Below are positions 15,138 to 63,400 of a stretch of DNA of 64,000 nt, in pieces. Made by a program: the position numbers and the translations under genes. The DNA comes from Tomocerus qinae (taxonomy: Eukaryota > Arthropoda > Collembola > Entomobryomorpha > Tomoceridae). The notes below the pieces were generated by a model. That model was not told the DNA's origin. It was given only the letters and a program-made list of their open reading frames with translations, and searched no databases. The stretch is from NCBI GenBank assembly GCA_020055645.1, contig CM034548.1, forward strand, positions 19,840,001-19,904,000. Direction: 5' to 3'. The first letter of the stretch is position 1. Every line of letters starts with the position of its first letter.

Positions 15138-15839
15138 TGTAAGGTTAGGCTGACCATAATTTGACGAAGGGAAAACGGGACACCATACAGTATTGTATTT
15201 AGGAGTCGATTTTGACGGGGGTAATGCCATTTAACCATTTATTTTAGGAATATTTTCCCGAAGCGCGTTAATTTTAAAATACTTTTGCCCAATATTTTAA
15301 AAAATGGCATTTAATCGCGCGAAGCGCGATAATTTTAAGCTTTTTTTGCCCTAAAATAACCATAAAAGACAATTATAATCACGCGAAGCGCGTTAATTTT
15401 AACCTCTTATTGCTGAAAATAGACAGAAAATCTTATAATCGCGCAAAGCTGGTTAATTTTAAGTTTTGTTTGCAAAAAATGGTCTACAATTTCCTTATAA
15501 TAGTACGATGAGCGTTTATTTTCCTTAAAACGGCTTAAAGTTTCCAAACAATTGTGCGAACCATGAAAATGTTAGATCCTTTTGTTGAAAAACAGCCAAT
15601 ATATATTGTAGATTGCCATTAAGTTTTACCATTAATCGCGCGAAGCGCGAAAAATTTTGTTATTTTCAGTCAAAATTTTCCTTTTTCGTTCGTAGTAGTC
15701 ATTAAATTAGATATTACTCAATTTTTCTAAAAAACGGGACGCGTTTCTGAAAACGGGACACTTTCGGGACGCCGGGACAGGTCACCAAAAACGGGACGAT
15801 CCCGTTAAAAACGGGACGGATGGTCAGCCTATGTAAGGT
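15138..15839. mobile_element. Non-autonomous hAT-like element with 8-bp target duplication
   Basis: The body is 15146-15831 (686 bp). It starts with TAGGCTGACCAT and ends with the exact inverted copy. It is flanked on both sides by TGTAAGGT (15138-15145 and 15832-15839), an 8-bp duplication as hAT transposases make. No transposase frame is present. Near the right end CGGGAC occurs repeatedly, and one copy lies near the left end. The interior holds copies of a GCGCGAAGCGCG hairpin motif, listed separately. Confidence 0.85.
15257..15650. repeat. Reiterated GC-rich hairpin motif inside the hAT-like element
   Basis: The motif TCGCGCGAAGCGCGA folds into a 6-bp stem with a GAA loop. Full or near-full copies lie at 15257-15267, 15315-15329, 15380-15392 and 15636-15650, and a decayed copy lies at about 15438-15452. 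The first four sit about 60-65 bp apart and share a following TTAATTTTAA stretch, so they form a tandem array in otherwise AT-rich DNA. Confidence 0.8.
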
Positions 15840-16649: not shown

Positions 16650-19600
16650 ATGGATCATAAGTGGCTCTCCAGTGGGTCAATAAGCTTAGAAAGCTGCCCT
16701 ACTGGTGAACGGAATAGCACCATGGCTAATTCCAACGACAGAACGTCCGATGTCCAGTATGAAACTTTATCAAATTTTAAAATAGTAGTTTTATAAACTT
16801 TGTTAATTGAATGTTAATGTCAATTACTTATGTATTATTTCTATTTTGTATTTAGAACGGATAAGTCCAACCCTGATGAGGCCCCTAAAAGAAAGAAGTA
16901 TTCTAAGGCAGCCAAAACTCTTTTGCCATATCGGAGCACCAAGTAAGAGTGATAATAATGCAGACACAATGACACAATGTACGCATAAATGTTAAATGAC
17001 ATTTAATATTTATTTTATTGACTTTATAGAGCTACAGCAAATAAAATGCCCAGTAGCGAGGCTGGTTTATTTTCATATCTTACAATATCTTGGCTGACTG
17101 TACTAATGTGGAAAGCTTTTCGACAAGGACTAACCAAAGATGATTTGTGGGAATTGGATGTAGGTTACTTTATCTTTTAAAACAGATTCAAAAAGTTATA
17201 CTTTTACATTTTAGTAATGCTGTTGTATTTCAGGATATTGACAAAGCCGAAACAAATGCTAAAAGACTGAATCGATTATGGCAAATAGAAAAACAAAAAA
17301 ATGGAGTAAATGCGTCTTTCTCCCGGTGTGTTTGGCAATTTGGAAAAACAAGATTTTATCTGTGTATTTTCCTGATGATATTCACAGTATGCTTCCAATT
17401 CTTGGGCCCGGTAAAGTTTTTATTTGTCTAAATTAAAATCGTGATTATTTAAGACAACTGTGAATTAATTCCATTGTCAAACTTTAGGCTTGGATATTGA
17501 AATCCATATTATCGTTTGTTGAAGACCCAACCCTCCCCTTGGAATCTGGACTTGTATTAGCTGTACTTGCATTTGCGGCCCAGTTAATTCGCAATTTGTC
17601 CTTTAGTGGAATGTGGTTGATTGGTATTCACACAGGTAGGATCATATATTTTTAAAAAAAGTTTTATACTCAGTTTTAATCGAATTTTTATATTTGTTTC
17701 TACTGCATTATTATCATTACTAGGGATGCGTTTACAAGGAGCGATGCAGTATATGACTTACGAAAAGCTATTAAAACTTAGAAGTGGTGGTGGAAATATT
17801 CTCAGCCAGGCAGTTACCTTTTGTACCAACGACCAAGAAAGAATATTTGAATGTGTTGCCGGTGGAGTTCTAGTAGTGGGTATGCACTGTAGTTTTAAAT
17901 CGTTAATTTAATCTGGAAAGAATTTTAGTAAACAATAATTTAATTCATTGTTATAAATACAATTGAAGCTGCTCCTTCGATGTTTATCATGAGCGTTGCC
18001 TATACTGTAACAGTGATTGGTCCTTGGGCTCTTATTGGAAATTTGGTTATATTTCTCTTCTATCCACTTATGGTAAAAAACAATGTTTTTGTTCATGTTC
18101 TGTTTCAGAGTGTTATTTATCCATTACATAATACTTACGCTGCTAATTTTTGTAGGGTGGCGTAGCTGCAAGTATTGCTATAACTCGAAGGAAAACAGTT
18201 CCTTTAACCAACAAAAGAGTTACTCTTATGACTGAAATATTGAATTCTATTAAATTGATTAAAATGTACGGCTGGGAAAATAACTTTACAGAGAACATTA
18301 AAGGTGAGTGAAAATTGTATGATAAAATATTATTTGACTGCGACATTTTACCTCAATCATTATTAAAATTGGTGTATGTAGATTGTAGAGCCAAGGAAGA
18401 AAGTAATTTACGACTCGCCGCATTTCTGCAATCTTTAACTGCTACTTTGACTCCGATGATAAACACTATTGCAGCTGTCTCCACCTTCATCGGATATAGG
18501 TATAAAATAGAACAACATAACATTTTAATTTCTGATAATATTTTAAATAAAATTGTATATTGAATGAAATAGTGCCAGTGGAAATAATCTCACCGCCACC
18601 GAAGTTTTCACAATATTTTCTGTATTTGCGACAATGCAATTTACTGTAGGGACGCTACCATTTGCTCTACGTTCTATTGCAGAGGCATCTGTTTGCTTCA
18701 GAAATTTTAAGGTTAGTTACGAATATAAGTTACTGTAAGTGTAACTATTTCTAAGTGGTTAAAGTTTTAAACTGTTTTTTATGCCATTCCTTACACTCGG
18801 AAATTTGTTGTTTAGACCTATTTAGAACTTCCTGAATATCAAGTTAGCACCAACGATCCTATAGAATGTGACCATGATTCGGTTATTGTCATCAGAAATG
18901 CATCATTTGCATGGGAAGATGCGACAGCAGAAAACAAAAATGGAGAAAAGGTCACAGGTCGTGGTAGGAAAAGAAAAGGTAAAGGAAAGACGGACAAAGA
19001 AAAGGAACCAGAGGAAGAAAAGTTAACCGAAGATGTTAAGGAAATTCCAAACTGTCTCAAAAATATAAATATAGACATCAAACGAGGAAAACTAGTAGGA
19101 ATAAGTGGCAGAGTCGGAAGTGGCAAGAGTTCCCTTTTGTCAGCTCTTCTAGGCGATGTAAGTAAATTAATGAAATCACTCAAGGATTTATGTGGGTACA
19201 TTTATTGGGATTGTAATTTCTCGTCTGCATTACCGTAAAAATGTTTCGTTTGTGATGTTGCTATAGATGGTGAAAACTAATGGCTCTGTGCTTATTCGTG
19301 GTTCAATTGCTTATGTTTCCCAACAAGCTTGGATCTATTCTGGGACATTTCAGGAAAATATCCTTTTCGGTTTACCTTTAAACCAGGAAAAGTGCGTAGA
19401 TAAGACAATTTACTGACTATTATGTCTCTGTCATTCTATTTAAAAGGATGAATTTGCTCTAGGTATGAAAAAGTTCTCGAAATATGCTGTCTAAAAGAAG
19501 ATTTGGAAGAATTGGAAGATGGAGATCAGACGTTATTAGGAGATAAGGGAACTAATATAAGGTATAATAATATAGCAGCTTTACTTATAATAACAAGTGT

Positions 19601-42439: not shown

Positions 42440-45290
42440 TAAGTCAAAACTTTTTCGCCAATTTTTAAATGCTCGTCAGTACAAATTATTCCATTTTCAA
42501 CATTTTTCAAACACTTTAGCCAAAAACTTCAGAAGTGCTACAATCAATTTACAAAAGCTTTTCTACAATTTGTTTACACCTTAAAAGATGAATACCTTAA
42601 AGATTTTTTCGAAATTTCCACAAACCACAATCTCAATTCTTTCTTAACAAACCTACCTTTTAAATGATTTTCAAAATGAATTGAACTTCAATTGGAATAA
42701 TATTAATAATGTTAAATATAATATTGTATCAATTATTTTCAAATATTTTATCCACTTGATAATTTTCATATGTTAGCTTCCCACATCGCTAAGGTTTACA
42801 AATATGATTTAAATTTATTCTCAAGTTTTCAAATACTTCCTTTAATTTTCAATTATTTTATAAATTATTTCTGTAAGCTTCAAATCTTTCTTATACATTT
42901 TTCAAAATTCAATTGTTTTCATCAACTTTTTCCGATATTAAATTTTTTTCATTATACTTTCTCGGAGATTCAAATTTTTTCCATATAATTTTCGAATTTT
43001 TATCTCATTATAAATGATTTCAAATGTATTCCAAATTATTAAGACATTTGGTAAATTTCCAAATACTTTTTCCAATTTCCAAATACTAGTCACATGCTTT
43101 CACAAATTTCCAAAAACTTTTGAAATATTTATTCAAATCCTTTCGAAACACTTTTCCAAATACTTTTTCCAAATAACTTTTTAAATACTTAGTGCCAAAT
43201 ACCTATTTACATATCAACACATTTTCTCCAATATCTAAATACTTTTTTCAAATACTTTCCAAATACTTTCTGAATACTTTTCAAAATAATTTTCCCATAT
43301 ACAGTCCAAATACTTTTTCCAAACAGATTCCCAATACTTTCCAAATACTTTCTGAATACTTTTCTAAATACTTCCTAAATACTTTCCAAATACTTTTCAC
43401 ATATACAGTCGAAATACTTTTTCCAAATACTTTCTGAATACTTTTCAAAATACTTTTCCCAAATACAGTCCAAATAATTTTTCCAAATACAGTCCAAATA
43501 CTTTTTCCAAATACAGTCCAAATACTTTTTCAAACAGATTCCAAATACTTGTCAAATACTTTCTAAATACTTTCCAAATACTTTCAAAATACTTTCCAAA
43601 TACTTTCTAAATACTTATCAAATACTTCCTAAATACTTTCCAAATACTTTTCCCATATACAGTCAAAATACTTTTTCCAAATAAATTCCAAATACTTCCC
43701 AAATAATTTTTCCGAATACTTTCCAAATACCTTTTAGAAATACTTACCAAAAACTTTTTTGAAATACTTCCCAAATACTTTTTCCAAACAGATTCCAAAT
43801 ACTTTCCAAATACTTTTCCCAAATACAGTCCAAATACTTTTCCCAAAAACAGTCCAAATACTTTTCCCAAATATAGTCCCAATACTTTTTCCAAATACTT
43901 TCTAAATACTTTTTCCAATCAGATACCAAATACTTTCTAAATACTTTCTAAATACTTTCCAAATACTTTCTAAATACTTTCCAAATACTTTTTCCAAATA
44001 CTTTCCAAATACTTTTTCCAAATACTTTCCAAATACTTTTTCCAAATACTTTCCAAATACTTTTTCCAAATACTTTCCAAATACTTTTTCCAAATACTTT
44101 CCAAATACTTTTTCCAAATACTTTCCAAATACTTCCCAAATACTTTCCAAATACTTTTTCCTAATACTTTCCAAATACTGTCCAAATACTTTCTAAATAC
44201 CTTCCAAATACTTTCCAAATACTGTCCAAATACTATCCAAATACTTTCCAAATACTGTCCAAATACTTTCCAAATACTTTCCACATTCCACATACTGTCC
44301 AAATACTATCCAAATACTTTCCAAATACTGTCCAAATACTTTCCAAATACTTTCCACATACTTTTCAAATACTGTCCACATACTTTTCAAATACTGTCCA
44401 AATACTATCCAAATACTTTCCAAATACTGTCCAAATACTTTTCCTAAATACTTTCAAAAACTTTTTCCGAAGTTTTCCAAACACTTTCCGAATACTTTCT
44501 TAATACATTTTCCGAATACTTTCTAAATACATTTTCCAAATACTTTCCAAATACCTTTTCCAAACACTTTCTAAATATATTTTCCAAACATTTTCTAAAT
44601 ATATTTTCCAAACACTTTCCAAATACTTTCTAAATAGATTTACCAATCACTTTCCAAATACTTTCTAAATACATTTTCCAAACACTTTCCAAATACATTT
44701 TCCAAAGGCTTGCCAAATACATTTTCCAAAGACAATTCAAATACATTTTCCAAAGACAATTCAAATACATTTTCCAAAGACAATTCAAATACATTTTCCA
44801 AAGACAATTCAAATACATTTACCAAAAACTTTCGAAATATATTTTCCGAATACTTTCCAAATATGTTTTCCAAATACTTTCCAAATACTTTCCAAATACT
44901 TTTTTCAAATACTTTCCAAATACTTTTTCCAAATACTTTCTAAATACTTTCCAAATACTTTCTAAATACTTTTTACCCATATTTTCCAAATACTTTTTCC
45001 AAATACTTTCATAATACTTTCATAATACTTTTTCCTAATACTTTCATAATACTTTCCGAACACTTTTTCTTAATGCTTTCCCAATATTTTTTCCAGATTT
45101 TTTTTAAAGGCTTTCCAGATACTTTTAAAATTGTACCTTTTCAAATGCTTTCCAAATGTTTTCGCCAATTTTTAATAATATCAAATACGTTCACAAATTT
45201 TGTAAATTCTTTTCCTAATATTTTCAAACTCTTTTTCCAACTTCTAATAGCTTTTCAGTTAGTTTATTCAATTTCAAAAAAACATGCAGA
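42440..45290. repeat. Minisatellite of 11- and 13-bp units, core about 43190-45070
   Basis: The base unit is CCAAATACTTT (11 bp), with a 13-bp variant that has two extra T. From about 43970 to 44125 they alternate as a 24-bp composite repeated six times. From about 44170 to 44440 pure 11-bp units carry TTT, TGT or TAT endings in a recurring order, giving a longer period of about 75 bp. Units become degenerate towards both edges, as expected for expansion by unequal exchange. The + strand has almost no G. Minus-strand frames of 60-110 codons (KVFGKYLE repeats) follow from the 24-bp and 33-bp periods. Confidence 0.93.
44720..44821. repeat. Four exact 24-bp repeats nested in the minisatellite
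   Basis: Units begin at equivalent positions 44731, 44755, 44779 and 44803 with GACAATTCAAATACATTTTC, and are identical over the full 24 bp. The sequence differs from the neighbouring composite by the GACAATT segment, so this is a separate recent amplification. Confidence 0.9.
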
Positions 45291-48200
45291 TCCTTAATCC
45301 AAATTATTCCAAATTTTAAATAGTTACGGGATTAGTAATTTGAACTATGTGATTCATCAGTAGGTTTTTTTAAGTATAGTTATAATCAAGCCTATAAAGA
45401 ATTATATAACCAGTATATTCGGGCTAAAACTTTCAACTCTTCTCAAGAAGCATTTGTCAATTTTTTATTCATTGTGGTGTGTTTCAAATCGTAATAGCGT
45501 GGAATATTAAAAGAATAACGAAATACAGATGGAGAAATTATAATTGCAAGGAGGCTAACATGTAGCCTTGTGGCCTTAGAAAATATTAATTTATTGTTGC
45601 TATGTTCAATTTATGTTGCACGTGAGTTTATGTGCACATTTAATTTATATTCCAATTTTAATAAAACTATCAAATGTAGATTTAGTTCCCCTAGGGAAGC
45701 TAAAATGTGACAATAGCAAATTTAGCAATTTTTCTGACATCGTTTTGTAAATAAAATCTTGATCTCACTAGATTGGAAAATTTAAATTTAGTAAAAACTT
45801 GGACATTGAATGCCCCTATTGTGTTACTCCATCGGCAACTACACCTTAACGTACCACAATTAGGCTTTATTTGTTGTCATAATAAAATATTTATTAAGTT
45901 CCTAAACAAAAATTAACTGAAAAAAATATAATCAAAACTACTACATCAAATCGTACGTAATTCTCAAACTAATTGTACTGCGCATACCGCTGACTGCTGC
46001 GATTTGCTAACCAATTGTTTGAGAACAATGAGACTGTTTGATTGAACACTGTGATGTGTTTTTTCTATAATATTAATGTCGGGGGAAATCGTACAATTGC
46101 CTAACTTTTTGAGGGGTCGAGAAAACATTATTTCCCAATGAATATTGAATAGACATTGAAACTTTAATTCTACCTAAACAAATTCTTCAACTTCTGCCGC
46201 TTCTGAAAACGTCAAATTGGAATCCTGTCATTTCTACAACGTAGAGAATGCTCCCTTATGAAACACAGTCCCACGGAACATTGACAAATGTGGGTCAATT
46301 CTGTAGCTATGAAGGATTTCAACATCAAATTTAATAATCTGTATTTAGGTAGCGTCTTCTATTACTAGTTTGGATACTTATTTACTACACTCTATTATGC
46401 ATTCCATTGCACAGGATTCTATTCTGGAGCTTAATTTGACTACAATTAAATGTCATTAGTTTATTGATCGATTGCTTACTAATTGTATTGGCAACTTTTA
46501 ATAATAATCCTTTATGGATATCCTTATCACAAGCAAAGCGGTCTACTATGCAAAGCGATACCCTGAATGTATCCACGCCTACGACTTGCCGAATCACCCC
46601 TATAGGGCAAAACAGCTTTCGGTTGGCCTGACCTAATCTAAGTACCTAATTGTAACTTCCACTAAATATTGAGTAATATTTCTCAGCTATTTACTACCTC
46701 GCTCAATTTCAAGCTTCTCTGCACAAAAACGAAATGACAGTGTTTGTGATCTATTTACTACCTCCATTCATTTAATAAAATGATATAGCTAATCAACCTT
46801 TATGAAAGATTTTACAACTATTTACTAGAATATTTGCTTTTTGTTATCTATAACAAATGACTTAGTCTATTCTTTTCACTTCTGCATGCCAAATACCATT
46901 CCTTATACAGTACTAGTTCCTCCAACTATTTTTATCACTAAAATGCATTTTTGAGACTCATTTGGCTGCATTAAATGAATCTCAAAATTGCTATTTCCAC
47001 AAAGTAGGAACTTCATTCTCTGACCAGTGCTTCTTATTTTTCCATGTTGAAAACATGCTTCACAACGTTACATACGTTTCTCATTCCATTTAGCTACTTT
47101 TAATACTATTTTTCATTTAATAGGTCTTGTGATACTATTTTTTAGGTATTTGTCGCCGCAGCAAGTCACAAACGTATTACGTTGTGCAGAAAATGTTGCG
47201 TTTTTACAGCTTTTTTCTATGTTTCTACTTTTAATATTTGCATATAGCATAGCTTTTTGTTTTCTATTTGATTCTATAATTAACTGGCTATTTACAACTT
47301 ATGTACACACATTTACATCATAACAAAGTACGCCATGTCTTGACTTACGTACTACATATTCAGTAATAATTGCAGTAATTTTGTGTTATTTACATTATAC
47401 ATACAACGATGCATATTTTTGTAAGTCGATAGCTTAAGAGTCAAGTGTAGGGACCCTACGACTACAAACTATTTGGTTCCTGATAACCGCTCTTTGTCGC
47501 CTGATGGCTTTGTGCATTTTAATATTATTTAATTTTCCATTGATTACATTATTAATTTTAGCACTAGTAAGTAGTATTACCTAGCCAATTACTCCATGTA
47601 TATTGAATATATCATACATTTTCTACATTTTATGCCTACTATTTATAAGTACGAGTGGGAGGAATCTGTTTAATCAACAGTTTATATATTTACCATATCT
47701 ACTATTTGATTGGCTTTGTTTGCATTAGGTATCGTCTGATTACATTCTTTAATTAGTTCACGAATAGGTATAGTGTAATAATACAAACATTAATACTGTA
47801 CATACTCATCCTCAAGAATAGTGAATCACTTAATATGCAGTGAACCTTCACCGCAAGGCTTCCATTTTCCGAATACCAATATTTGCCACAAAAAGCATAC
47901 GTTGACAAAATCCAGAGAGTTTCCTCTCCATAAACACATTCATGAACGTATTTGTTAAGTTTCTGTCAGTTTTTGGGCATGGATCATTCCCAAAAAAGTA
48001 AAACGTTGACTGGTACAATTTTCATAGCTAGAATTGCTGTTTGTGTTTTGTGTCCTGTACACAGCGGCCTTTTACAACATACAGAATACTTTCCAAAGCA
48101 TTCCACATTACAGAAAAGGAGTCAAATTATCTCCAGAAACATCATGGAGAAACTGGAATTCTAAATATAGCCATTTGTAAAAATATGGACTGAAGAAATG

Positions 48201-48444
48201 AAAAAGAATTGTCGAGTATTATAGTGAGACCTTAGACGAGCCACTCATCATGTAGATTAACATTTGACGTCAACTGGATCTCTTCGATGTTTTTGTCACG
48301 AATATAATGACACTGTTGATGAAATAATGGATTTCCTCGAGAGTCAGCAGTAATGTTGACCTTGATTTGTCCAGGCGCTTCTAATGTTTCAAGAAAAGGG
48401 GAGCTAGTTGTAGATGATCTTGAATTCGCAGTAATTGGATACAG
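45291..48444. other. Region downstream of SerT
   Basis: It should contain the SerT 3' UTR on the minus strand. A plus-strand frame at 47952-48164 encodes 70 aa with an internal hydrophobic segment but has no recognised relatives or splice context. Nothing else was recognised. Confidence 0.45.
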
Positions 48445-51400
48445 TCAAACTGTTGTACCGTAATTAGTCGATGGGGTGTACACCTTCATGTCGGCAGGAT
48501 CGATCGGTTTTGTCATTTTCTTTAGACGCTGTTAAACAGAAATTACATAAACCGTTAGATCATTCCAGTTGTTACAATTAGAGAGAACCTTTATTTCTTC
48601 ATTAGCTCTCCATGCTCAAATGATAACAATTAACTAAAACGGTTCAACCAATTAAAAATTTTTTCAAGGAATGATAGCTAAGATTAAGAAGAATAAGATT
48701 TGAGTAACCTCTCGACAGGAGGATTGGCGCGGGCGTTTGAACCAGGCACATCTGGGTTTTTACCGTGTCCGTCGATTGAAGAAAATGCCTGGAAATTCCT
48801 ATTTTTAGGATTTTCCAGGCATTTTCAAAAGTGTAAAACTGTAAGGCTGTACCTCAGGTAAGTGGTCCAACTTGTGGTTTTACTTTATCGTATTTAATTT
48901 ACCATTAATTGTGCAGTGAAGAAAACAAAATTTTTCGTTTTATTAGGTTCATGGTCATTGCTGGGAACTTCGGCACTGCGCCATCTCGGGGGCACTCAGA
49001 GTAATGTGCTACTTGTTGACAGTGACCACAAGATGTCGCAGGGCCGCCTTTCTGGAATGAAACATAACCAACATTTTTCTCAAGTTGTTCATGTATCAAC
49101 ATCATGAACTCGAGACTGTGTTGTGTGTGTGATGTTGGGCATGAGACGATGATGCATTGCGCCACTGCACTCTGCCCATAATTCATACACCCAACCTCAT
49201 GCACGGTAAAAATTTTATTCGTTTTTAATTGATGCGGGTGGATTTTAATGGGGGTGTCGGGTGGTGCTGCTCGGGATTGTGGGCGTGGTCATGCGGGGGG
49301 GACTGCCGCGGATTGGGGAGTCTGTACCGGGGGTCTCACATTGGCTCTTTCCCCGGGGTGCCTTACCATACCGCCGTGTATAGCCGCCGCCTGGCCTCTC
49401 TCTTGGTTTCGGGTGGGGCTATTTGATGGCTCCTATTGAAATCCTAGGACACATGTCAACCGTGTCCAGGAATCAGTACTCAGAAATGAGGACTGCATGA
49501 AAGAGATGGGGAGCTGCAGAGCCAACCTGTCTCAACGTACTCCATTTACGTGCGTAAGTGGGGATCATATTTTATGAGTAACCACTTCCCAAAGCAGCAG
49601 GTATACTGCCGACGTGGCAGCAAGAACTGCCAGAACCGGAGAATAGGGGGCTAAAAGGAACCCTAGAATCCCAATCCCCCTGGACCGCAAGATGAGGTAG
49701 GTGGGGCGGGGTGCCCAATTTCGTTCTTTTCTTATTTTATTTTGTGGTGGCAGGTGCTGCTGCTAAAACGCCATATCTAAGCACTGGTATGGTGTGGCAG
49801 AGCCTGCCGGGAATCAAAGTTGTCGCCAGGGGAGTTGGCAATAGGCCCGTACAGGCGGCCTGCGCCCTTGTCGTCAGTTCTACTCAATAGGCTGATGACA
49901 ACCCCTTATAATACATACATACATACATACAACCTCTCGACAGGAGCCAGGGGTAATGAAGAATAAGTATATCATGTAGGCAGGGATGCAAATAAGTGAA
50001 GAACTGGTTAGAAGCCAGCCTACTGCAATCGACCACCCCGGGTACACATAACTCTCTGTCTTTAAATCTTCGTAGGCATACAGGGACGCGAGGAAGATTA
50101 CCTAAGGATTAAAAACGGGCAATTATAAGCCGCAATCCAGTAAATTAACTATTCACTTCTTTATATAACCTACAAGAATAAAAATAGGGCTTATAAAATT
50201 CCAACAGGTTCTCCAGAACAGATTCGGTTTTTTGCCAATCATTTTCTCGACGTCGCAGGAAAATCGGGTAACTCCATAAATCCAGCAGACTGCTGCAGCC
50301 TCAACGAAAACGACGAAGAGAATAGATATTCCAGGTCCATAGATGGTGAGTAAATTAACTAGATAAGCTCCACCCTAAGAAAAATCCATTCTTAATTAAT
50401 TTATGACCAAGTTTGCCAAAGTTATCTTTGTAAATAAAATAGGAATGCCTACCTAGATAAGAAATAGTAGGATGAGAATTGAAACGTTAAATAGGAAATG
50501 TGTCTTACTTGAGTACATGTAGGCAGCGTGCATAGGAACACAAAGAGAATAAGCAGAGCAACAAAAACCTCCCGGTTTCTACCCAAAGTAATTGGATACT
50601 CATCACAGAGAGCAGTGATAATTGCTTCAAGCCCTCCAAAAGTGCTGTCCAAACCCAATGTAATTAGCATCAAGAAGAAAATGATGGACCAAAAGTTGGA
50701 TCCCGGCATCGTCGCAATTGCTTCTGGGTACACAACAAACACCAACCCAGGCCCTGCAATTTACCAGGCACAAGAAACATGAAACAATTGTAGTCCACTT
50801 GATCTTATTTCTCTCTGTCTGCAGTCTGTCTCCACCACTCCCACTTCACTAGGTGCATGTAAACCATAAGTAATAATATTCTGCTTCCCAATGCTATTTA
50901 AATATTTAACTGCTTTAACTTCACTGTACTTTATTCATATGCTAATTTCTTTGAATCATTTGTCATTCCATTAAATTCCGCAGAATATCATTCTTTGACA
51001 TCCATTGTATTTTCCACTAACTCAGGTAAACATTATAATTTAACTAGGTATACGTTTAAATTAACTACAGGTATGTATTTTATTTACCAATAAATATTTG
51101 TGATTCTCTCAGGTGCATCTACTTCCCAGATAGATAACCTACTTAACTTGTTCATTCTGAAACTTTAGCTTAACTTACCCTCCAATCCAAGTTCGTTTAT
51201 TTTTTTCTTTTGCACCTTGGCCATATAACCAAGACAAGAGAATATAACGAAACCTGCCAGAAAGCTTGTCAGACAATTAATTGTACTGGTGATGATTGCA
51301 TCTCTGTAAAATGAGAAAAGTATAACGTCATTTAGAAGGAAATACTTTTCTATACACTGCAATACTATTTTCAATATTACTTTCAATTTATTCAGTTGAT

Positions 51401-60400: not shown

Positions 60401-63400
60401 GAGTGGATCACCAAGTTCAAATCTCAATCTTTTACGCTTGATGTAGTAAGTTGTGCCTGAAGTTAAAGAGGGAAAGGAGAAGGGAGAAAAGAGTGGAGTT
60501 GAGAGTTTTAGTTTTAGTTGCTTTGCTGGACTTTGGACTTGTGGAGTGAAAGTCAGTGAGCCAATAGATCTCGGCAAATCATTTATCCACAGGGTGAGGT
60601 GTAAAATGAATCTTAGTAATTGGATGTCTGCAAGTCCCTGGGTAGTCGTTTAGACAAGGAAGAATCGTGCCATTTAGCACTTTTCCATCGTTGTTATCTC
60701 TTGACATTATTTTTCAAGTGGTAATAACCTTAGTTTGATGCCACAGAGTCACTTGCCATTTCCCATTCCTTTCTATTCCACTCGAATCCAATCACACTGT
60801 CTCATGGAATCATCCTGTCCTCCTTCTCCTTCACAAATGCTACTGCTACTCGCATAATGGCCAAACCAAATCAACAATTCTTGTAAACCTCGCACTATAT
60901 ACTACTAATCTGTATAATATACAACAAAAGGTATCAATCAACCCAACAGTTTATTTATATCACGGACATAGGTGCTTTTTAATCCTTATCCTACTATCTA
61001 TCTACTCCTATATTATTTACTAAGTACCTGACAACACATGTGTGCCACGTCGCATTACCTCCACCCTTCCAATAACCTACCCACTATACTCAAGACCTCC
61101 AATTCTAGTACAATGTCCGAATTCTCCAATAATTGCCACACCACTCTTCTTTCCTCAGACCCCATTTCTGGTCGGACATTCATCAATTACATTTTATATA
61201 CCATATTACTTTAATTCTTCAATAGTGACTTTATTATCTCTACAAAAACAGTCTAGACTCTAATGTTACTGTCCCTGCGTCAAACAAGTGCGACGCAAAA
61301 ATGAACAAAATAAAACTGATTTTTCCAACATGCTTTCTCCAACTTACCTTTCACTGCAGGACAAATATGTTTCCAGATAGAAATACATCCGCTTCGGTAG
61401 TACTGCCCCAAAGCTAACTCCATGTAAAACAGTGGCAGTCCACCGAATATTAGCATCACACAGTATGGGATCAAAAACGCACCTGTTGAACAAAAACAAC
61501 TTTTACTTCTTTTCCTTACCTCAATTTATTTGTTTCTATACAAACAAATATTCCTTTCTATAGCACAATAATGTAGCTTTCAACTTTACAGTTTTACAGC
61601 CGGATTTTTTAAATCGCACCAATAATTCTTCTTGTGTCTCATTTCATTTATACATGTCAGATCCTATTTTACTAACTTCATGCTTATCATGCGATCATTT
61701 ACTATGTAAAAAGTGTCCTGGTTTATGAAAACTCGATTCTTTAAACATTTAGAAGGCATAAAATATATCTAGTAGTAAATTCAAATGATATTATTTGTAT
61801 TTGCAATGGATGCTCCGACTAAGGATGGAAAATTATTGCTCCCTTTGAAAATTGTATATTAATTCACTTGAGCAAAACTCATTTCAGGCTATTTAAACCA
61901 GTCTATATACCGAAGTAGCAATTTCAAAGAATTGTTATAAATAATTTATATCTATACTAAATTGCACAAGAGTCTGGCGAAGGCTCCAATTACGCAAAGA
62001 TATCCAATAGACTCAATAGAATGTATTTCTATTTCTGACTTTGCAGCTTTGTATTACAATTGCAATTTCACATGTTTGTCCCAGGCATCAAGTTTTGACC
62101 AAAATAACTTTCATGCCCTAAAGCTCATAATTTTGCAGAAGAGTCAGCTCAAACAAAGATCATTTCATCCATTTTCACATACAAAATTTAATACAATGGA
62201 AACACCAAATTTCATGTAGGGTTTCGCATGCTCCCAATTACATATTACATACATACAGCTTTCAATAAATTATGAATACTAATTTTATGAATTGTAAACT
62301 ACAAGTGTAAACTGAAACTGCAATTTCACGATAACAAGTTGTTGACTGCTAATTAATTTCACATCTACTTAGTATCAAGCCCTACTTAGTGTCAAAGCTT
62401 TCCATTCCTCAATAACTGAAATTATAGACCATTCAAATTGAAATCAACGACGACACCGAGAAGTAGGATGTGTGAAGGTAGAAGACTTAGTAGGACCATA
62501 GTGTGAAAGCAAAGCGCTATTTCTCCTAATGCATTGATGAAATGGTAACATTTCTATGTTATGGAATGGCATGACAATATTACAATTTGTTCATAAAGTA
62601 AAACGGAGAATGTAGAATCTATTGTTAGGATATTCTGTTTCCTTGATTCATTGGCCTGATTTATTTTTTCATGGAATAGAAAGCTACAGAGGCTGTGATT
62701 GGCTACGCTGCACATGAATAAGCAAACTAACTTTGTGATAACTAACTTTGTATTCTCTAAACATGGGAACGACATTTGAGTTCATTTCTAAAAGAATTTA
62801 TGTTATTGCTTCCTCCGAATTGGAAAACCTTTTCGCTTTATCCTTCAAAGTACACATATCAAAGCATTGTCTAATAAATACTGTAGGAAAATATTTATGG
62901 TAGATAAACAGGAAAGGAAATTCAGAGATCTCACAATTCCATCAATAATTCTTCTGTGACTTGTAAAATGTATCCATGCAGATTTCAAAACCAATTATAG
63001 GTACTTCAGGAATGAAAATGCAGATTCAAACCATCTCTACTTTAGTATTTGTTAAAATGAAATTATTGGGAAATAAAATTTGTAAAAATTGAAGCGTGTA
63101 AGTTATTGTGGGATAATATTATAGAATTATGTAGTAGTCTATGCAGAATTGTAAGGCGATTCCTAAAGTGGCAAAATAAATCTGAACTAATGATGATGTT
63201 ATAGGGATAGGCATAAAAGAAAGGTATAATTGAGTGAAAAAGCTGACCTCCGCCGTTTTGGTAGCAGATGTAGGGGAATCTCCAGACGTTTCCGAGATCG
63301 ACAGCAAAGCCGATGACGGCGAGAAGAAACTCGATTTTCTTGTCCCATGTTTCTCGTCCGTCTGCGGTGAGAGTTATTGTCAAAGCAGCAGTGTTGCTTT

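Follow-up and report, generated by a model that had tools for sequence, protein, structure and literature searches.

The SerT-like gene

In the 64,000-nucleotide stretch of Tomocerus qinae DNA analysed here (the window), 11 coding exons on the minus strand, from 63521 to 48445, were joined in frame and encode a conceptual protein of 608 amino acids, with the first ATG as its probable start. The best PDB matches of this protein were serotonin transporter entries (705.7 bits, the top-scoring one being probably human SERT), followed by the best matches to a dopamine transporter (664.1 bits) and a noradrenaline transporter (653.8 bits). Because the whole protein scores serotonin transporters above dopamine and noradrenaline transporters, its identity as SerT, a full-length SLC6 protein nearer to SERT than to DAT or NET, holds on sequence comparison, as the preliminary description of this locus had proposed, although exon 8 alone (84 amino acids) matches dopamine transporters better (105.5 versus 86.7 bits) and counts against it. 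No relatives were found in a collection of viral contigs, and the collection of genome contigs (bacteria and archaea) returned one Clostridium locus at 31% identity, which was left out of the analysis. At the other end of the gene, the donor of the first coding exon, at 63248, appears to read GAG/GTCAGC (the slash marks the cut), deviating from the GTRAGT consensus.

Coding exon 10 (49934-50101), which carries TM12, ends in TPGSCRE in phase 0, and its donor is GAG/GTT with 49934 as the final exon base. Exon 11 (48445-48528) begins with RLKK at 48528 and encodes the cytoplasmic tail and the stop. The last intron between them, at present 1,405 nt long, contains at its 3' end a complete ancestral intron of 180 nt (48529-48708, minus strand), running from GTTACT at 48708 to TTTAACAG at 48529.

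Three further features were observed elsewhere in the window, and a fourth lies about 3 kb downstream of the SerT stop: a large degenerate satellite of about 2 kb (43018-45240) with units of about 11 and 24 bp and the consensus TTTCCAAATAC. The others are an open frame on the plus strand with a partial ABC transporter domain (18816-19235; Pfam ABC_tran, E 2.9e-7), a tandem repeat of about 60 bp that contains CGCGAAGCGCG motifs (15259-15480, with a further short match at 15632-15650), and a 98-bp inverted self-match of 92% (1969-2066) that forms a long hairpin and is possibly a small inverted-repeat element.

A target-site duplication across the last exon-intron boundary

The sequence AACCTCTCGACAGGAG is present twice, at 48706-48721 and 49931-49946, with 16 of 16 bases identical, and the bases just outside each end of the repeat differ. 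The exon-side copy (49931-49946) takes in the end of the TM12 exon (its final 13 coding bases) and the adjoining GTT. The intron-side copy (48706-48721) reads CTCCTGTCGAGAG/GTT on the SerT strand, followed by ACT, and probably represents the ancestral last donor, GAG/GTTACT, still intact. Both the duplication over the last exon-intron boundary and the copied 5' splice site were thus found as first described, with GAG/GTT on the exon side and an intact GAG/GTTACT on the intron side. The true length of the duplication is 15 or 16 bp, because the first A of the right copy may be part of the neighbouring ATAC tail, in which TRF counts 5.2 units, to 49931.

Direct repeats of exact 16-mers, spaced 100-3,000 bp apart, fell into five groups in the window, the SerT repeat included, in a count that omits pairs with the first copy in the 43,000-45,300 satellite; about 0.2 such pairs are expected from base composition alone, and the probability of the SerT 16-mer at its given place is 5e-11. 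The repeat pair adjoins the only array of three or more ATAC units in the window, and the G+C content steps at the repeat from 34.5% across 4 kb of flank to 48.8% inside the insert. A chance repeat was rejected as unlikely, since the identity of the copies, the rarity of the 16-mer and the adjoining ATAC array argue otherwise. A random insertion would straddle one of the gene's ten donors with a chance of about 1%, and such an event is improbable for a single insertion, not for a genome full of them.

The identity of the copies had been taken to suggest a recent event, and it does point, weakly, in that direction; 0 differences in 16 positions nevertheless permits a divergence of about 17% (95% bound), or about 8% once the 20 clean bases of the tail are added to the 16 repeat sites, and one of the copies has 13 of its 16 bases in coding sequence, which weakens identity as evidence of age.

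Structure and probable class of the inserted element

Between the two copies lies an element of 1,209 bp (48722-49930, plus strand), inserted in the opposite orientation to SerT. Near its 5' end, a 21-bp inverted repeat, near-perfect and closed by a 4-nt loop (48781-48826), forms a strong hairpin; the 129 nt from 48722 to 48850 fold at -51.7 kcal/mol (z -6.62), with none of 200 shuffles as stable, and the hairpin might be a small element nested in the insert or give rise to a hairpin RNA. At the other end, a 34-nt terminal stem-loop (49868-49901, plus strand; -15.2 kcal/mol, z -3.63, a stability reached by none of 200 shuffles) lies 9 bases ahead of the tail repeats and is retained when the surrounding 151 nt are folded, for which the overall fold has a z of -1.36 (13 of 200 shuffles as stable). 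The tail is (ATAC)5 (49911-49930, plus strand; TRF), the sole array of its kind in the window, and it faces the SerT exon, where it reads (GTAT)5 on the SerT strand.

Target-primed insertion of a retroposon produces a target-site duplication of roughly 7-20 bp. The insert combines such a duplication, identical in 16 of 16 bases, with a simple-repeat tail and no terminal inverted repeats (none of the seven inverted repeats of at least 12 bases in the element links both ends), and its 3' stem-loop precedes short tail repeats, as in stringent-type LINEs and their partner SINEs. These features fit a non-LTR retroposon of the stringent type in reverse orientation. Because a stem-loop followed by short repeat units occurs in stringent-type LINEs, the insert is probably the 3' part of such an element, either a 5'-truncated LINE or a SINE-like partner.

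No reverse transcriptase or endonuclease frame was found in the insert, as all 18 open frames of at least 38 amino acids were without a Pfam match at the cut-off; the only Pfam row among them, DUF2247 (E 0.12), fell below the cut-off and looks like chance, and a 127-amino-acid minus-strand frame was also searched separately. A coding remnant was rejected on this result. ARAGORN detected no tRNA genes within the window, and an Rfam search of 48400-50200 with E up to 10 listed 17 rows, all of them under the gathering score and 13 on the 48781-48826 hairpin; a SINE with a tRNA or 5S head was rejected on these grounds. The missing reverse transcriptase or endonuclease and pol III head make a LINE or SINE identity less likely and leave the mechanism unaffected, since a 5'-truncated LINE lacks both. 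A DNA transposon or an Introner was rejected as well, given that no inverted repeat of at least 12 bases joins the ends and that the duplication of 15-16 bp and the repeat tail are contrary to it.

No second copy of the element was found in the window, where self-comparison yielded four matches, all short and weak (E 0.06 to 0.8). Exact patterns gave 0 matches in the viral contigs and genome contigs collections, and blastn gave no match in plasmids and phages; these collections cover bacteria, archaea and viruses, so absence from them says little for an animal element.

Candidate donors at the enlarged intron

On the SerT strand, the sequence after the exon-side GAG is GTTGTATGTATGTATGTATGTATTATAAGG, in which the tail provides four GTATGT hexamers, at 49930 (+3), 49926 (+7), 49922 (+11) and 49918 (+15). 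We scored the candidate donors with two matrices, both crude: a local one from the nine other donors of the SerT gene and a generic one from general donor frequencies. The unshifted donor, GAG/GTTGTA, which gives the normal protein, scored 0.40 (local) and -0.20 (generic), and the +3 donor, GTT/GTATGT, which adds one Val in frame, scored 3.80 and 3.52. The +7, +11 and +15 donors all read TAT/GTATGT (3.20 and 4.96); the first two shift the frame, one of them ending in CREVVCIV, and +15 stays in frame and adds VVCMY. The +19 donor, TAT/GTATTA, also a frameshift, scored -1.89 and -0.13. Use of the intron-side copy, GAG/GTTACT (3.01 and 3.56), would retain 1,225 nt with the insert and reach a stop after 17 codons. 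The nine other SerT donors ranged from 1.44 to 10.93 locally (leave-one-out) and from 4.58 to 12.57 generically, and the +3 site scored under seven of the nine locally and under all nine generically. All of the exon-side and intron-side candidates are weak, and the ancestral donor is likewise weak.

The preliminary description had proposed that the element supplies a consensus-like donor three bases downstream and that the choice between old and new donor keeps the frame and differs by one Val. The ATAC tail does supply GTATGT at +3, but at four sites, not one; the intron side is consensus-like, but the exon-side GTT pulls +3 under most of the gene's own donors; and the one-Val difference applies to the unshifted and +3 sites, whereas +7 and +11 lead out of frame and +15 adds five residues. 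A choice between two donors is also incomplete, since the complete 180-nt ancestral intron makes retention of the insert a real rival.

Predicted pairing with U1 ranked the sites differently in its two treatments. In a fixed register, the energies were -2.6 kcal/mol for the unshifted site, -3.5 for +3, -2.0 for +7, +11 and +15, and -0.6 for the intron-side copy, with -3.1 to -10.6 kcal/mol for the nine other SerT donors. When pairing was free (bulges allowed), the unshifted site came first among the seven candidates, at -6.8 kcal/mol, because AGGU and the GUAU of the tail pair together; +3, +7, +11 and +15 each reached -3.5, the intron-side copy -4.2, and the nine other SerT donors -4.5 to -10.6 kcal/mol. 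Between the unshifted and the +3 site, the matrices favour +3, and free U1 pairing favours the unshifted one. In both U1 treatments, the tail is predicted to improve the exon-side donor over the ancestral one.

A donor with T before the cut appears to have a precedent within the gene. Exon 9 ends in CTT/GTAGGT (free U1 energy -5.1 kcal/mol), and a cut at TAG/GTTATA, four bases further along (-4.0 kcal/mol), would put the next exon out of frame; because the frame must continue, CTT/GTAGGT is probably the exon 9 donor, and SerT would already use T before the cut together with a good intron side. At the end of exon 10, GTTGTA, from 49933 down to 49928, forms a GTNGTN motif, and the ancestral GTTACT does not.

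Masking of the donors by local structure was rejected: on the SerT strand, 49895-50000 folds in an ordinary way (z -0.84), and 44 of 200 shuffled sequences were just as stable. Exonisation of the insert as a cassette through the copied donor was also rejected: with the unshifted or the +3 donor, all ten candidate acceptors led to a stop within the insert and hence to truncation, under an acceptor filter that would miss four of SerT's own ten acceptors.

A proposed mechanism and its alternatives

We propose a nick in the SerT coding strand three bases inside the intron, at GAGAGGTT^ACTC (the caret marks the nick); the nicked end, GAGAGGTT, would have primed reverse transcription of the tail in the known geometry, and cleavage of the second strand would have produced the duplication. 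The insertion would have turned the weak GAG/GTTACT into GAG/GTTGTATGTATGT, a GTNGTN tandem donor. The exon-side donor cluster would be used, the insert would be removed within the 1.4-kb intron, and SerT would be functional, with +3 as the major site, giving an extra Val (CRE-V-RLKK), a substantial unshifted share and minor use of +7, +11 and +15.

That a target-primed insertion of the stringent type made a GTNGTN tandem donor with +3 as its major site is the reading to which we tentatively lean, at somewhat less than even confidence. We lean to +3 because exon 9 appears to use T at -1 with a good intron side, and because the downstream donor dominates in confirmed human GTNGTN donors. Against it, +7, +11 and +15 score comparably (two of them breaking the frame), and the intact intron-side donor has a similar score. 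Because free U1 pairing prefers the unshifted site, the chances of +3 are lowered and those of the unshifted site raised.

The insertion may instead have strengthened the old unshifted site, through pairing of the tail's GUAU. Use of the unshifted GAG/GTTGTA would make the insertion neutral, the protein being unchanged and the intron merely lengthened from 180 to 1,405 nt, and we consider this outcome possible but rather unlikely. AG/GT is preserved at the cut, the ancestral donor already scored weakly on the matrices, and the bulged U1 pairing of AGGU and GUAU (against -4.2 kcal/mol for the ancestral donor) falls inside the range of the other SerT donors; however, the matrix scores are low, because positions +4 to +6 now deviate from the matrices, and the fixed-register energy remains at -2.6 kcal/mol.

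Short insect introns are commonly recognised across the intron. If that holds here, the short ancestral intron, which is complete and has 13 bases of exonic context copied beside it, would be spliced from the intron-side copy with a donor score akin to that of +3; the mRNA would keep the insert, and SerT would be truncated by the early stop, without the Arg-Leu motif and the tail. Three AATAAA hexamers on the SerT strand of the insert (49741, 49219 and 48944) could in addition end transcripts early. This would be a loss-of-function or hypomorphic allele, for which the sequenced animal was perhaps heterozygous. We regard it as unlikely: it demands a 1.39-kb exon and that six GT sites within the first 20 bases be bypassed, the U1 energy of the intron-side copy is -0.6 kcal/mol in fixed register and -4.2 when pairing is free, and truncation of the tail is likely to carry a cost.

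That +7 and +11 take a large share, replacing the cytoplasmic tail, seems quite improbable. TAT precedes the cut at three of the four GTATGT sites, with the scores given above, their free U1 energy equals that of +3, and frameshift products of a last junction mostly escape nonsense-mediated decay; on the other hand, selection should oppose such products, and the fixed-register energy is poorer than that of +3, a figure that varies with the counting of outer pairs. Finally, the case for no insertion at all, with a chance repeat or a chimeric assembly join in its place, draws on the locus being covered by a single contig and on the four further exact 16-mer repeat groups in the window, but it is very improbable, as the repeat, the tail, the stem-loop and the G+C step all meet at the same two ends and the remainder of the SerT gene model is complete.

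Possible consequences for the transporter

The alignment with SERT is ungapped at the exon 10/11 junction (CRE/RLKK), and the junction directly precedes an Arg-Leu that aligns with Arg607-Ile608 of human SERT. According to two studies (PMC4505579, PMC4200255), these human residues lie within an RI/RL motif proposed to bind SEC24, the Arg-Ile motif is needed for folding, and the hydrophobic face of the helix Thr603-Thr613 is required for folding. An extra Val would be expected to shift all later residues by one on that helix. Small changes are not always harmful, because human SERT tolerates alanine at 604, 608 and 612 (same sources). The results for human SERT may not carry over to the SerT-like protein here.

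In a more speculative extension, which we think doubtful, the (GTAT)n tail would be a length-variable ladder of 5' splice sites, slippage in which tunes the proportions of normal, Val, VVCMY and frameshifted SerT tails, and hence folding and ER export; the insertion would have rescued itself, since the U1 pairing of its tail, either in register at +3 or bulged at the old site, surpasses that of the former weak donor.

The locus offers a natural test of how the spliceosome chooses among duplicated donors, an intact short intron being set against tail-borne sites, and it does so in a behaviourally important gene, directly before Arg-Leu. From the sequence, more than one version of the SerT tail may be produced. 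Should RNA reveal splicing at the donors in the element's tail, this would be a retroposon repairing the splice site that it broke, and possibly a step towards sliding of an intron boundary.

Comparison with known systems

We found no earlier report of an insertion at a SerT donor in the open-licence literature, among the matches listed. The nearest known case is the canine merle SINE in PMEL (PMC7349775). There, as here, a reversed retroposon sits at an exon-intron boundary, the target duplication (15 bp at the original splice site) resembles the 15-16 bp found here, and the reversed tail carries a splicing signal; in merle, the length of this tail as a microsatellite decides which site is used. 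The merle insertion affects the acceptor of intron 10, whereas the donor of the last intron is affected here, and its poly(A) tail is read as a polypyrimidine tract, whereas the (ATAC)n tail supplies donors directly. By analogy, the same geometry would act here on a donor, with a tail itself composed of donors; the splicing effect is reported for merle and predicted here.

The choice at GTTGTA corresponds to the GYNGYN tandem donors (Hiller 2006, PMC1779574), which are also reported in fruit fly and in which the choice of a GTNGTN site adds one codon; here, the motif apparently arose through an insertion and is extended into a ladder with four-base steps. In that study, the downstream donor of human confirmed GTNGTN donors averages about tenfold more ESTs, and the site with the lower U1 energy is the major site in 88% of confirmed cases, which by our free-pairing figure would point to the unshifted site. 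Of 81 confirmed GTNGTN donors, 8 carry T at one or both of the N positions. Most GTNGTN donors show a single site in use, and there is evidence that both sites are used in 2% of those in human and 0.8-1.5% in five other animals including fruit fly (same source).

Introners (PMC9860276) likewise obtain splice sites from the duplicated target, and one family adds four residues. They create new introns, whereas the insert here has lengthened an intron that was already present and copied its donor, and their duplications of 3-9 bp differ from the longer one here, where the ends of the insert also lack a joining inverted repeat of at least 12 bases. The stringent-type LINEs UnaL2 and ZfL2 (PMC4176376) have a 3' stem-loop followed by short repeat units, like the insert, and the stem-loop is needed for retrotransposition; such LINEs share their 3' tail with partner SINEs. 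They differ from the insert in that no reverse transcriptase or endonuclease frame was recognised in the latter, whose loop and family matched no known element. In Drosophila, introns are reported to slide by multiples of three, with GYRGYR among the signs, in a study that found no intron gain derived from transposable elements (PMC2891723).
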